Of a stretch of 32,592 nt of DNA, positions 2,883-15,721 are shown piece by piece. The position numbers were made by a program, and so were the translations under genes. Position 1 is the first letter of the stretch. Each line of letters opens with the position of its first letter. Source of the stretch: Thermomicrobium sp. (GTDB lineage: Bacteria; Chloroflexota; Chloroflexia; Thermomicrobiales; Thermomicrobiaceae); assembly GCA_025060175.1 (NCBI GenBank), contig JANXBE010000008.1, positions 1 through 32,592 of the forward strand. Reading direction: 5' to 3'. The notes beneath the pieces are model-generated. The model did not search any database. It worked only from the letters and a program-made list of their open reading frames with translations, and had not been told where the DNA came from.

Positions 2883-3311
2883 CTACTGCTTCGGCTTCTT
2901 CGTGCCGTACTTCGAGCGCCCTTGGCGCCGATTCTCGACCCCCTTGGCATCGAGCGCGCCGCGGACGATGTGGTAGCGAACACCCGGCAAGTCCTTCACG
3001 CGCCCTCCCCGGACGAGTACGACCGAGTGCTCTTGCAGGTTATGACCCTCACCCGGGATATACGCAGTGACCTCGATCCCGTTGGTCAACCGCACGCGGG
3101 CAATCTTGCGCAGGGCCGAGTTCGGCTTCTTCGGCGTCATCGTCCGCACTGCGACACAAACGCCGCGCTTCTGCGGGTTACCCTTCGCCACCTGCCGCAA
3201 TTTGCCCGCATTGCGACCGACACGGCTCGAGATGAACTGCAGGGCCGGCGCCTTGGACTTCTTCGTGCGCTGCTCTCGGCCTTTCCGCACCAGCTGATTG
3301 ATTGTCGGCAC
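2883..3311 (-). CDS. rpsL: 30S ribosomal protein S12 (142 aa)
   Basis: S12 lines the decoding centre of the small subunit. The protein begins [14 protein letters not shown] and contains [11 protein letters not shown] and [13 protein letters not shown]. These two loops carry the lysines (K43 and K88 in E. coli numbering) changed in streptomycin-resistant mutants, and both are wild type here. The basic C-terminal tail ([16 protein letters not shown]) is longer than in E. coli but common in other phyla. The start is GTG at 3311 with GGGAG 6 nt upstream, and the ribosome binding site sits in the loop of a small hairpin. First gene of the str operon. Confidence 0.97.
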
Positions 3312-3350
3312 GTCGGTCTCCCTCTCCGACCCGCGCTAGTCTCCTAGCGC
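3312..3350 (-). promoter_or_regulatory. Two hairpins in the rpsL 5' leader, one presenting the ribosome binding site
   Basis: On the minus strand GCGCTAG-GAGA-CTAGCGC (3333-3350) forms a perfect 7-bp stem capped by a GNRA-type GAGA tetraloop. Immediately downstream, GTCGG/CCGAC (3312-3330) forms a 5-bp stem whose loop AGAGGGAGA holds the rpsL Shine-Dalgarno sequence next to the GTG start. The structures are read directly from sequence; a regulatory role is inferred. Confidence 0.55.
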
Positions 3351-3486: not shown

Positions 3487-7848
<4,362 letters not shown>

Positions 7849-12089: not shown

Positions 12090-12162
12090 GCGCCCGTAGC
12101 TCAATGGACAGAGCGTTTGCCTCCGGAGCAAAAGGTTGCAGGTTCGAGTCCTGCCGGGCGCA
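12090..12162 (+). tRNA. tRNA-Arg (anticodon CCG)
   Basis: Complete 73-nt cloverleaf. The acceptor is GCGCCCG/CGGGCGC, the D stem GCTC/GAGC, the anticodon stem TTTGC/GCAAA with loop CTCCGGA (anticodon CCG, reads CGG codons), and the T arm GCAGG-TTCGAGT-CCTGC. The discriminator base is A. The following bases are CCG, so the CCA end is not encoded and must be added enzymatically. It stands alone between the rpoB promoter region and the bactofilin genes. Confidence 0.96.
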
Positions 12163-12188
12163 CCGCTTGGTTCCGCACTTCGCTCGAT

Positions 12189-12533
12189 TCACCGCCACCG
12201 CTGAGACGGCTCGGAGATTTCCCACTCCGACCGGAGTAACGCGTGACGACGCCGCCGAACCCGAACCAGCCGATACCAAAAGAGCAACGGGCCCCAAATC
12301 AGGAGAGCGAACGCGATCACCCAGGCGAGATGGTTGAGCAGGAGAAACCATGCCGTCGACCATTGCACCGAAAACACGAGGATGACGCCGAGCGTCCACG
12401 TTTTGAAGCCGATGACGATGCCGCCGAACCACCACGCGAGACGACGCCAATCTGCCCGCTCGTCGAGCGCCATGTCGACGTTCTCCGTCCAGCGCCGGAT
12501 CACGTTGGCGTGTTCCTGCCCCTGTTCGTACAT
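12189..12533 (-). CDS. Small membrane protein of unknown function (114 aa)
   Basis: I do not recognise a family. A soluble charged N-terminus (about 30 residues, with WTENVDMALDERADWRRLAWW) is followed by two hydrophobic helices (roughly residues 32-55 and 64-88) and a very basic tail (RLVRVRRRRHALLRSEWE). It resembles the many small two-helix 2TM-domain proteins of bacteria. The first ATG (12533) has only a poor ribosome binding site. The internal ATG at 12473 has GGAG 9 nt upstream and would give 94 aa, so the start is uncertain. It is divergent from the bactofilin genes and ends 26 bp from the tRNA-Arg gene on the other strand. Confidence 0.6.
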   Translation of the reverse strand: MYEQGQEHANVIRRWTENVDMALDERADWRRLAWWFGGIVIGFKTWTLGVILVFSVQWSTAWFLLLNHLAWVIAFALLIWGPLLFWYRLVRVRRRRHALLRSEWEISEPSQRWR

Positions 12534-12536
12534 GCC

Positions 12537-12545
12537 TGCTATACT
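12537..12545 (+). promoter_or_regulatory. Extended -10 promoter element ahead of the bactofilin pair
   Basis: TGCTATACT matches the extended -10 pattern TGnTATAAT at five of six hexamer positions. There is no good -35 hexamer at the right distance. It would start a transcript about 120 nt before the first bactofilin. The same TATACT hexamer recurs ahead of the next two plus-strand units (13707-13712 and 14707-14712). Confidence 0.4.
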
Positions 12546-12671
12546 GCGAACGTCGCCGGGGGAAGTCGAGTCACGTGACGCCCAGACCGGCGCTCGCGTT
12601 CAGTCTACACCATCGGGACTCGACGCACCTCAGCGTTTGCTGCCGCCTCGATCAGAGAAAGGAGCACGGCG

Positions 12672-13217
12672 ATGTTCCGTCGCGACCCACGTGATCCGCT
12701 CGAACGGCAATTGTCGCAGCTCCGGCATCAGCTAGAACAAACAGCGTTGGAAGAGGACTTGACACCCGACGAGGAATTGCCCCCTCCGGTACCCAGCGAC
12801 GTCGCGGTCGCCACCCCGCGCACCACCTGGCAGCCGTCCGAGACACCATCGCGCGTCCCGACACCGGCGCCCACAGACCGCTTGACGAGTATCGTGGCAG
12901 CCAACGCGCGTTGGGAGGGCACCCTGCAGACCGAGGGCTCGCTCGTCATCCATGGACAGGTCCAAGGCACGATACGGGCGACACACGACGTCACCATCGC
13001 TGAGGGAGCCGCGGTGGAAGCAGAAATCGTCGCTCACGACGTCGCCGTGCACGGGACAGTGCGTGGCCGCATCGAGGCTCGTGGGCGGTTGGAGATCCAC
13101 CCCACGGGACAAGTCGTCGGTGAGGTGCAAGCGCCTTCGCTCGTCGTCCATGAGGGCGCCCGGCTATCCGGCAAACTGAAGATGGGATCGAGCGACGCTG
13201 GCGAAGCGCAGGGCTGA
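12672..13217 (+). CDS. Bactofilin with a long disordered N-terminus (181 aa)
   Basis: Bactofilins polymerise without nucleotide into cytoskeletal filaments built from a right-handed beta-helix, often scaffolding envelope enzymes. Residues 72-170 show the family pattern: short hydrophobic/glycine repeats beginning TSIVAANARWEGTLQTEGSL and continuing GQVQGTIRATHDVTI, AEGAAVEAEIVAHDVAVHG and TVRGRIEARGRLEI. The first 70 residues are a charged helix (LERQLSQLRHQLEQTALEED) followed by a Pro/Thr-rich linker, longer than in most bactofilins. The ATG has AAGGAG 7 nt upstream. The second bactofilin starts 14 nt after the stop, so the two are certainly co-transcribed. Confidence 0.9.
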   Translation: MFRRDPRDPLERQLSQLRHQLEQTALEEDLTPDEELPPPVPSDVAVATPRTTWQPSETPSRVPTPAPTDRLTSIVAANARWEGTLQTEGSLVIHGQVQGTIRATHDVTIAEGAAVEAEIVAHDVAVHGTVRGRIEARGRLEIHPTGQVVGEVQAPSLVVHEGARLSGKLKMGSSDAGEAQG

Positions 13218-13231
13218 GGTGGAGGTCGCGC

Positions 13232-13690
13232 ATGATCTACGAACCGGGACCGAACGCCGCCACCCGCTCGGTGGAGAGTCTCACGCTCGTCGACCGCTAC
13301 ACGACCGTCGAGGGCGGACTGACCTCCAGCCGAGACCTTCGGATCGAAGGGGAATTGCGAGGCACGATCCGCTGCGATGGCTCAGTGCAGATCGCCGAGG
13401 GTGCCCGCGTCGAGGCGACGATCGAGGCCGGCGGGATTACGGTGGCGGGAACCCTCCGGGGCACCATCGAGTGCCGTGGAAAGCTGCACATTCTCAAGAC
13501 CGGAGTCGTCGCGGGAACGATCGCGACCCGCGTCCTGGTGATCGATGAGGGTGGTCGTTGCGAGGGTGAACTCTCGATGACGACTACCGAGTCGACCAGC
13601 CCCGCTACTCTGTTCGAATCGACCCCGACTCCCGCACTGGGTGGAATCGAACGGGTCCGGAGCGCTTTCGCCGACTCTCGAGAGTCCTGA
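13232..13690 (+). CDS. Second bactofilin (152 aa)
   Basis: The core (about 24-118) repeats the bactofilin beta-helix: TTVEGGLTSSRDLRIEGELR, GTIRCDGSVQIAEGARVEA, GGITVAGTLRGTIECRGKLH, GVVAGTIATRVLVIDEGGRC. It differs clearly from the first copy, so this is an old duplication or a hetero-polymer partner rather than a recent repeat. A Ser/Thr-rich tail (119-152) follows the core. GGAGG lies 6 nt ahead of the ATG. The two products probably co-assemble, since paired bactofilins commonly do, but this is inferred. Confidence 0.88.
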   Translation: MIYEPGPNAATRSVESLTLVDRYTTVEGGLTSSRDLRIEGELRGTIRCDGSVQIAEGARVEATIEAGGITVAGTLRGTIECRGKLHILKTGVVAGTIATRVLVIDEGGRCEGELSMTTTESTSPATLFESTPTPALGGIERVRSAFADSRES

Positions 13691-13706
13691 CTCCCGAGGT
13701 GGCAGC

Positions 13707-13712
13707 TATACT
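13707..13712 (+). promoter_or_regulatory. Possible -10 element ahead of the SH3b membrane protein gene
   Basis: TATACT in the 73-nt gap between the second bactofilin and the next gene, 52 nt before its ATG. There is no convincing -35 and no TG extension. It is listed because the same hexamer, in similar GCTATACTSC context, precedes the bactofilin pair. Confidence 0.25.
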
Positions 13713-13763
13713 CCACGGTCGAACGAACTCGTCGAGGCGGTCGAGTGGAGACACAGGACGACG

Positions 13764-14690
13764 ATGACGATAGAGCGGAAGTGCGGGACCTGTAGATACT
13801 TCGAACCAGCACCGCTGTGGCGAAAGGGATGGTGCCGACATCCACTGCTCTACGCGCCTCACCAGAGCCACCTGGTGAGTGAGGATGACCTCGACTGCGA
13901 CCGGGGCATGACGAACTACTGGGAGCCCGCAGAGCACCCGCCACGGGAGCACATCGAAGAGCCGACCCATGAATACCAGATCGTCCGCTCACCCGAGAAG
14001 TCGGTGGTTGAGCGGTCAGGGGAGGATGGGAGAAGTGGCCGATTCGGCGCGGCACGAGAGCGAGGGTCGACGATGAGCTTCTTCCGCGATGAACCCCCTG
14101 GGCGCGATCCCGAGCCAGAAGAACCGACGATCCCCCCGTTCAGCAGCCGCCCACCGAGCGGTACCCCCTTCGGCAGTGAACGCTCGTATACCTACCAGAC
14201 TGACGATCGGTACTGGACCGACTATCTCCGCATCGCAGCACCGGTTCTTGGCGTCATTCTGATGCTCGGCTTGGCATGGTTTTGGATCAATCAGCTCTTG
14301 GGCGGACAAGAAGAGGCGATACCCACGGTCACGGTGACCCACGTGATCACCGGCCCCACACCGACGCCGAGCGGCACTCCGGCCGGGTTGATCGTGATCA
14401 CCCCCGCAGCGAGCAACCCCACGCCGACCGCCATCGCCGGCACGCCGACGCCCCGAACGACGATCGGCCCTGGCGCGACCGTCGTCGTGGCGAACACGGA
14501 TGGTGCCGGTGTCAACTTGCGCGCGGCACCGTCCACGAGTGCCGACGTACTGGAACGCTTGCCGGAGGGCACCCAACTCACCGTGGTGGGCGAGTCGATC
14601 TCGGCTGACGGGTACGTGTGGTGGCCAGTCAAATACGGAAATCAGGACGGGTACGTCGTCGCCGACTATCTCGAACTGGCTCGTCCCTAG
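13764..14690 (+). CDS. Membrane protein with a Cys4 head, one transmembrane helix and a C-terminal SH3b domain (308 aa)
   Basis: Residues 1-58 hold four cysteines in a likely zinc-binding head (C7, C10, C24, C45; CGTCRYFEP...GWCRHP...CDRG). Residues 60-152 are polar and proline-rich. One membrane helix spans about 155-176 (IAAPVLGVILMLGLAWFWIN). A Thr/Pro stalk (187-235) leads to a bacterial SH3 domain (240-308, GAGVNLRAAPSTSADVLERL and DGYVVADYLEL). SH3b domains usually bind cell-wall or surface polymers. The predicted topology is Cys4 head inside and SH3b outside. The frame is open upstream to 13641 inside the bactofilin gene, but the ATG at 13764 has AGGA upstream and starts the conserved head. 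Its function is unknown; position suggests a link to the bactofilins. Confidence 0.85.
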   Translation: MTIERKCGTCRYFEPAPLWRKGWCRHPLLYAPHQSHLVSEDDLDCDRGMTNYWEPAEHPPREHIEEPTHEYQIVRSPEKSVVERSGEDGRSGRFGAARERGSTMSFFRDEPPGRDPEPEEPTIPPFSSRPPSGTPFGSERSYTYQTDDRYWTDYLRIAAPVLGVILMLGLAWFWINQLLGGQEEAIPTVTVTHVITGPTPTPSGTPAGLIVITPAASNPTPTAIAGTPTPRTTIGPGATVVVANTDGAGVNLRAAPSTSADVLERLPEGTQLTVVGESISADGYVWWPVKYGNQDGYVVADYLELARP

Positions 14691-14703
14691 TGGCGACCAA
14701 GCA

Positions 14704-14848
14704 TGGTATACTCGGGCGAGCCGGCCCATGAGCCGGGATCGACACGCGTCCGGACCGCGTTCGGTGTGCCGTGCGCATTGCTCGGTCGTAGCGCGGGATG
14801 AAGGGCGCGGACGTGTAACACCGGATCAGCAGCGAAGGGAACGCCATC
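14704..14848 (+). promoter_or_regulatory. Promoter and structured leader of the rpsB-dxr cluster
   Basis: TGGTATACT (14704-14712) is an extended -10 element, placing the start near 14719 and leaving a leader of about 130 nt. The leader can form a small stem CCGGC/GCCGG (14721-14725 with 14732-14736). It can also form a longer-range pairing of ACACGCGTCC (14742-14751) with GGACGTGT (14809-14816), with a 2-nt bulge. S2 autoregulates rpsB-tsf in other bacteria through the leader; no known motif was recognised here. Confidence 0.4.
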
Positions 14849-15721
14849 GTGTCCATCGCCGAACATGAGACGGAACAGATTCCACTCAAGGCCTTGCTCG
14901 AGGCAGGGGTGCACTTCGGGCACCAGACGAAGCGGTGGAACCCGAAGATGCGCCCGTACATCTTCGGTGAACGGAACGGTATCCATATCATCGACCTCCG
15001 ACAGACGGCACGGCTGCTCGCCGAAGCGGAGGCAGTCGCGAGAGAGCTCGCCGCGCGCGGTGGCCTGTTCGTCTTCGTCGGGACGAAGAAGCAAGCGCAG
15101 GAGATCATTCGTCACGAAGCTGAGCGCTGCGGGATGTACTCGGTCACCGAGCGCTGGCTGGGTGGAACCTTGACGAACTTCGTGACGATTCGGCAGCGAC
15201 TCCGCTACCTCGTGCAGCTGGAAGACGAGGTCAGGGGCGCCACCTTCCCCCTGCTCCCGAAGAAGGAGCAGATGCGGAAACTGCGCGAGCTCGCCAAGCT
15301 CCAGCGCACCCTGGGGGGCCTGCGCGGTTTGACGCGCTTGCCCGACGCGCTGTATGTCGTCGACCCGAAGCGAGAGTCGATCGCGGTAGCGGAAGCCAAG
15401 CGGCTCGGTATTCCGGTCATCGCGATGGTCGATACGAATTGCGATCCGGACTTCGTCGATTTCGTGATCCCGGCTAACGACGATGCGATCCGTTCCATCC
15501 GGCTGATCACGGCTCGGATCGCTGATGCGATCATCGCCGGACGCACGCAGTTCGAGACCGCAGTGGGCGCCGTGCCCGAAGAACTCGGCGAGGAAGCCTT
15601 GCCGTCGAGTTACGAACTCTTCGGCGAGGAATACGTGGAGCTGCAGGAAGAACTCGACGAAGAGGTCGAGGAAGAAATGCACGACTCGCTCGAGGCACGC
15701 CTCCCGAAGCACAAGTATTGA
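14849..15721 (+). CDS. rpsB: 30S ribosomal protein S2 (290 aa)
   Basis: S2 is needed for initiation on the small subunit and for docking of S1-like proteins. Family blocks are present: [60 protein letters not shown] and [20 protein letters not shown]. The C-terminal 50 residues are strongly acidic ([13 protein letters not shown]), which lengthens the protein beyond the roughly 240 aa of E. coli. The start is GTG at 14849 with GAAGGGAA upstream. First gene of the conserved rpsB-tsf-pyrH-frr-uppS-cdsA-dxr cluster. Confidence 0.97.

Follow-up and report, generated by a model that had tools for sequence, protein, structure and literature searches.

A candidate bactofilin-wall tether encoded ahead of rpsB in Thermomicrobium and related Chloroflexota

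Attachment of bactofilins to the cell wall is known in few organisms. In H. pylori, the SH3 domain of the transmembrane protein Csd5 binds peptidoglycan, and Csd5 brings the bactofilin CcmA to the envelope (PMC9507126). In Hyphomonas, a bactofilin is paired with an M23 endopeptidase (PMC10945521). A literature search found no study of bactofilin-wall attachment in Chloroflexota. Here we describe two bactofilin genes and a third open reading frame, ORF3, within a 32,592-nucleotide stretch of DNA from Thermomicrobium sp. (GCA_025060175.1, contig JANXBE010000008.1), the whole of which is referred to as the window. The closest known system to this trio is Csd5-CcmA of H. pylori. Csd5 and ORF3 have in common a single membrane pass, a cytoplasmic N-terminus and an external SH3 domain (the topology of ORF3 being predicted), and both are non-enzymatic and associated with bactofilins. 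The likeness is one of anatomy: ORF3 is tied to bactofilins by gene linkage alone, and membership of the Csd5 type is not claimed. The system described here differs from Csd5-CcmA in its distant phylum, its tandem bactofilins, a cysteine-rich (Cys4) head, a predicted internal translation start and a paralogous head at RodZ. Bactofilin-M23 pairs also place a bactofilin beside a single-pass envelope protein, but the external domain of ORF3 is an SH3b domain without a peptidase. In RodZ-MreB, a transmembrane adaptor likewise joins a cytoskeletal filament to the envelope; RodZ carries HTH_25 and RodZ_C domains, whereas ORF3 has neither, and RodZ in the window's order has a double-Cys4 neighbor.

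The gene trio and its products

Both bactofilins scored about threefold above the curated PF04519 cut-off of 27.9 bits (93.8 bits for bactofilin 1, 86 bits for bactofilin 2), and ORF3 is followed by rpsB (Table 1). The tandem of bactofilins and the position of the trio directly ahead of rpsB, both read from the letters alone in an earlier note on this DNA, were thereby confirmed. These are the sole canonical full-length bactofilins in the genomes of the window's family. A tRNA-Arg (CCG) gene lies at 12090-12164, between rpoB and the bactofilin genes. Promoters and terminators sought in 12100-15000 showed no excess over shuffled sequences.

Table 1. Features of the bactofilin-ORF3 locus and of the paralogue locus beside rodZ
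Feature	Position	Strand	Remarks
Bactofilin 1	12672..13217	+	181 aa; bactofilin domain residues 73-169; PF04519 E 7.7e-27
Bactofilin 2	13232..13690	+	152 aa; PF04519 E 2.2e-24
ORF3, Cys4-TM-SH3b protein	13764..14690	+	308 aa counted from ATG 13764
Cys4 head of ORF3	13764..13928	+	C-x2-C-x13-C-x20-C
Internal Shine-Dalgarno-like GAGGG and in-frame ATG (14073-14075) in ORF3	14054..14075	+	predicted start
Juxtamembrane motif RYWTDYLR and single TM helix of ORF3	14199..14300	+	AF2 model helix residues 149-179
SH3_3 (SH3b) domain of ORF3	14508..14675	+	PF08239 E 1.4e-12; predicted outside the membrane
rpsB	14849..15721	+	conserved neighbor downstream of ORF3
Double-Cys4 paralogue	L102:4178-4951 (G000:C13, about 46177-46950)		directly upstream of rodZ, genes adjoining
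rodZ	L102, about 4963-5820		HTH_25 and RodZ_C in the window's genome

An N-terminal membrane-targeting peptide of the MFSK type is typical of bactofilins, not universal. Bactofilin 1 begins with MFRRDPRD, and most of its orthologues with M(I/V)FR(R/K). No MF-type, membrane-targeting-like N-terminus was found in any bactofilin 2 orthologue examined. Because MFRRD resembles the published membrane-targeting consensus MFSKKKK (PMC12448750) and bactofilin 2 has no such terminus, bactofilin 1 is the predicted membrane-bound member of the pair.

The first in-frame GTG of the ORF3 frame, at 13641, lies inside bactofilin 2. This codon was rejected as start: its Shine-Dalgarno pairing amounts to +0.2 kcal/mol, compared to -6.4 kcal/mol at ATG 13764, and conservation begins only from 13764, so that ATG 13764 is most likely the start of ORF3. 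Orthologues were found in 20 of 21 family genomes and begin at a methionine matching ATG 13764 where the contig includes the start; the closest relatives are from Bacterium HR28 and Thermomicrobium sp. CFH 73360. ORF3 contains exactly four cysteines, all within the N-terminal head (residues 7, 10, 24 and 45 from ATG 13764); it also has a single hydrophobic helix. Two basic residues precede this helix and none follow it, and the head is therefore predicted inside and the SH3b domain outside. Charge and helix prediction thus agree with the single-pass topology proposed earlier.

The C-terminal domain matched SH3_3 (PF08239) with 48.1 bits against a cut-off of 27 (residues 290-345 of the long reading frame), which bears out the suggestion that the bactofilin partner carries a binding-type and not a peptidase domain. 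The AF2 model of this domain is confident (pLDDT >90 across most of residues 241-300), and in a Foldseek search it matched bacterial wall-binding SH3b domains. This sole fold search informs the SH3b domain only, the models of the head being too poor. SH3_3 domains can bind non-wall ligands too. The wall of T. roseum is dominated by protein, with little peptidoglycan and galactosamine replacing glucosamine (PMC2615216), so the atypical wall that the earlier note mentioned for Thermomicrobium-type cells is documented for that species.

Linkage of the trio across Chloroflexota

The earlier note had named an absence of linkage in relatives, together with a lack of interaction, as what would count against the module. 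A neighborhood survey did not bear out such an absence: the trio is adjacent in all 46 testable genomes, which belong to three families of the order (f1, f3 and f5) and 24 genera. Within the window's family (21 genomes, 6 genera) adjacency was seen in 19/19 testable genomes; G018, split by contigs, and G015, incomplete, were left out of the count. In the wider order the trio was adjacent at 5/5 f3 loci and 22/22 f5 loci, the latter including L083 with only part of one bactofilin at a contig edge, and rpsB lay 3' of the trio wherever the contig extends that far. This arrangement is far beyond chance. The rpsB neighborhood is conserved, and nothing shows a functional role of that placement.

Bactofilins are nearly universal in the class (149/158 genomes). 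In f2, which belongs to the same order, and elsewhere in the class in f10 and f13, the headed protein occurs apart from them; f12, which is only half complete, showed none. The neighbors of the unlinked headed proteins in f2, f10, f12 and f13 showed no common partner. In other orders of the class a DivIC-like septum protein adjoins a bactofilin at seven loci (L167-L169, L171-L173, L175), of which one scores slightly under cut-off; the neighbor is an M23 peptidase in f10 and f13 (L161, L162). The SH3b protein thus occupies a position held elsewhere by a different single-pass envelope protein.

Part of the linkage could be inherited synteny around rpsB. That the trio is nothing but such synteny, its genes having no joint function and the SH3b protein some other role in the envelope, is unlikely in our judgment. 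The constant presence of rpsB downstream would fit this explanation, as would the separation of headed protein and bactofilins in f2, f10 and f13. It accords poorly with strict adjacency over so many genera with zero exceptions in three families, with a juxtamembrane motif confined to linked proteins, headless ones included, and with the DivIC-like or M23 envelope proteins that adjoin bactofilins in other orders too.

In two metagenome-assembled genomes the head and the TM-SH3b part lie in different frames (L064, about 3237-3349; L095, about 2864-2940). No start signal was found at the second frame of either, and the breaks are probably assembly (indel) errors or gene decay; neither locus was counted as evidence.

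Cys4 head, juxtamembrane motif and predicted internal start of ORF3

Across 14 diverse relatives, 20 of about 55 head positions are invariant, among them all four cysteines. The Cys4 head is thus real and strongly constrained. It is nearly confined to this class, as judged from a phylum-wide sample of 400 genomes. No described Pfam family matched it at cut-off and no PDB sequence matched significantly (best PioC, E 0.14); assignment to a known zinc or Fe-S family was accordingly rejected. The nearest Pfam models were HPIP_like (PF18524; 17.0 bits against a cut-off of 28.1) and HIPIP (PF01355; 15.8 against 22), scores that come from paralogue heads, the window head itself matching neither. The head shares CxxC and GWC patterns and the first three cysteine spacings with these Fe-S domains, but the resemblance lies below cut-off and has no structural support (the AF2 head model is unreliable, with pLDDT about 50-60). 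The spacing of the fourth cysteine presumably differs.

Four invariant cysteines, the weak sub-threshold resemblance to HPIP_like, HIPIP and PioC, and the occurrence of the head in doubled form beside RodZ could be explained if the head acted as a sensor of redox or metal state, perhaps an Fe-S or zinc switch, and so governed either the tether or the bactofilin filament. We regard such a sensor as improbable: HPIP_like and HIPIP stayed below cut-off in every member, a family-wide PF18524 search gave chance level, the match to HIPIP lies in another register, and three linked genera have no detectable head.

These three genera (G133, G144, G146) keep both bactofilins, the TM-SH3b protein and rpsB, and no Cys4 head was found in them. 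Conversely, f2, f10, f12 and f13 carry head-TM-SH3b proteins without adjoining bactofilins. The head is therefore separable from the bactofilin-linked TM-SH3b protein. Being missing in some linked members and retained in unlinked ones, it is unlikely to be the bactofilin contact. The f10 genomes each encode two headed proteins, one of which, in L078, L080 and L085, has a linker of >400 residues between head and SH3b domain.

A different segment tracks linkage. RYWTDYLR(I/V), directly before the TM helix, is present in 47/48 linked proteins and 0/12 unlinked ones, and all three headless linked proteins carry RYWTDYLR. We therefore propose this juxtamembrane segment, and not the Cys4 head, as the better candidate for the bactofilin contact. 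The correlation is partly confounded by phylogeny, f2, of the same order, being an exception.

Between head and TM helix, an in-frame start codon occupies one aligned column in 20/20 family genomes (16 ATG, 4 GTG). It is the sole start-codon column after the head common to all 20, in a linker otherwise variable in length and sequence. In 14 genomes it is preceded by a GGAGG-type Shine-Dalgarno sequence of -11.0 to -12.2 kcal/mol; in the six genomes of the window's genus the sequence is weaker (-7.5 to -8.4 kcal/mol; -8.0 at the window's own codon). Other genes of the window contain 436 internal ATG/GTG codons in frame, of which three reach -11 kcal/mol or below and 15 reach -8.0 or below. Shuffling of synonymous codons with amino acids fixed gave P values between 0.004 and 0.016 in some genera; elsewhere they rose as high as 0.4. 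Comparable or stronger internal sites were found in the f5 genera g22, g28, g29, g30 and part of g33, and the site is absent in f3, f2 and f10. A second, headless TM-SH3b product of 205 aa is the probable outcome of this internal start.

The start might instead be unused, the conserved Arg-Gly-Gly-Met being a linker feature at the protein level. The weakness of the synonymous-codon test in genus g1 and others, together with families f3 and f2 lacking the site, lends this some weight, and we hold it to be possible but doubtful. It does not readily explain that the valine found at the start column in four genomes is encoded by GTG only, that the 20/20 column is unique, or that a correctly spaced GGAGG persists within a variable linker. 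Free-standing headless genes, moreover, exist in three genera, and that of G144 has an equivalent methionine with a Shine-Dalgarno value of -10.6 kcal/mol.

A paralogous head at RodZ and a model of the putative tether

Of 46 genomes of the order having both rodZ and a double-headed Cys4 paralogue, 45 carry the two genes on one strand and within 2.6 kb of each other; in the lone exception both genes are near contig ends. G125 retains the pair amid different flanking genes. Present in the bactofilin-linked ORF3 and in the RodZ neighbor, the Cys4 head thus distinguishes loci belonging to two cytoskeletal systems. MreB was found in 20/21 family genomes, and none was seen in the window's own half-complete assembly. 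As a tentative and rather unlikely idea, the Cys4 domain may be a cytoplasmic adaptor shared by two cytoskeletons, with one head fused to the bactofilin-wall tether and two in the RodZ-neighbor protein. Such an adaptor would link the growth zones of bactofilin to those of MreB-RodZ, and the internal start would set the ratio of headed to headless forms.

For the trio itself we favor, with some reservation, a bactofilin-wall tether with predicted headed and headless forms. Bactofilin 1 would attach to the inner membrane face via its MFRRD-type N-terminus and co-polymerize with bactofilin 2 or be decorated by it. ORF3 may recruit the filament through the RYWTDYLR segment, as its co-variation with linkage suggests, and the external SH3b domain, borne on a stalk rich in Pro and Thr, would hold the filament to the wall, judged by domain type and topology. 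ORF3 would then act as Csd5 does with CcmA. The Cys4 head may serve as an optional cytoplasmic metal-binding adaptor, with zinc or Fe-S, that brings in a further client. Since a conserved internal start sits between head and TM helix, headed and headless tethers are predicted, and both are probably made in the cell. The doubled head probably has a corresponding role at RodZ.

The trio persists in heat-loving and related Chloroflexota. A conserved Csd5-like tether amid scarce and unusual peptidoglycan would make it possible to test which ligand the SH3b domain has in such cells. The occurrence of one undescribed Cys4 domain at both bactofilin and RodZ loci makes a link between the two cytoskeletons directly testable.
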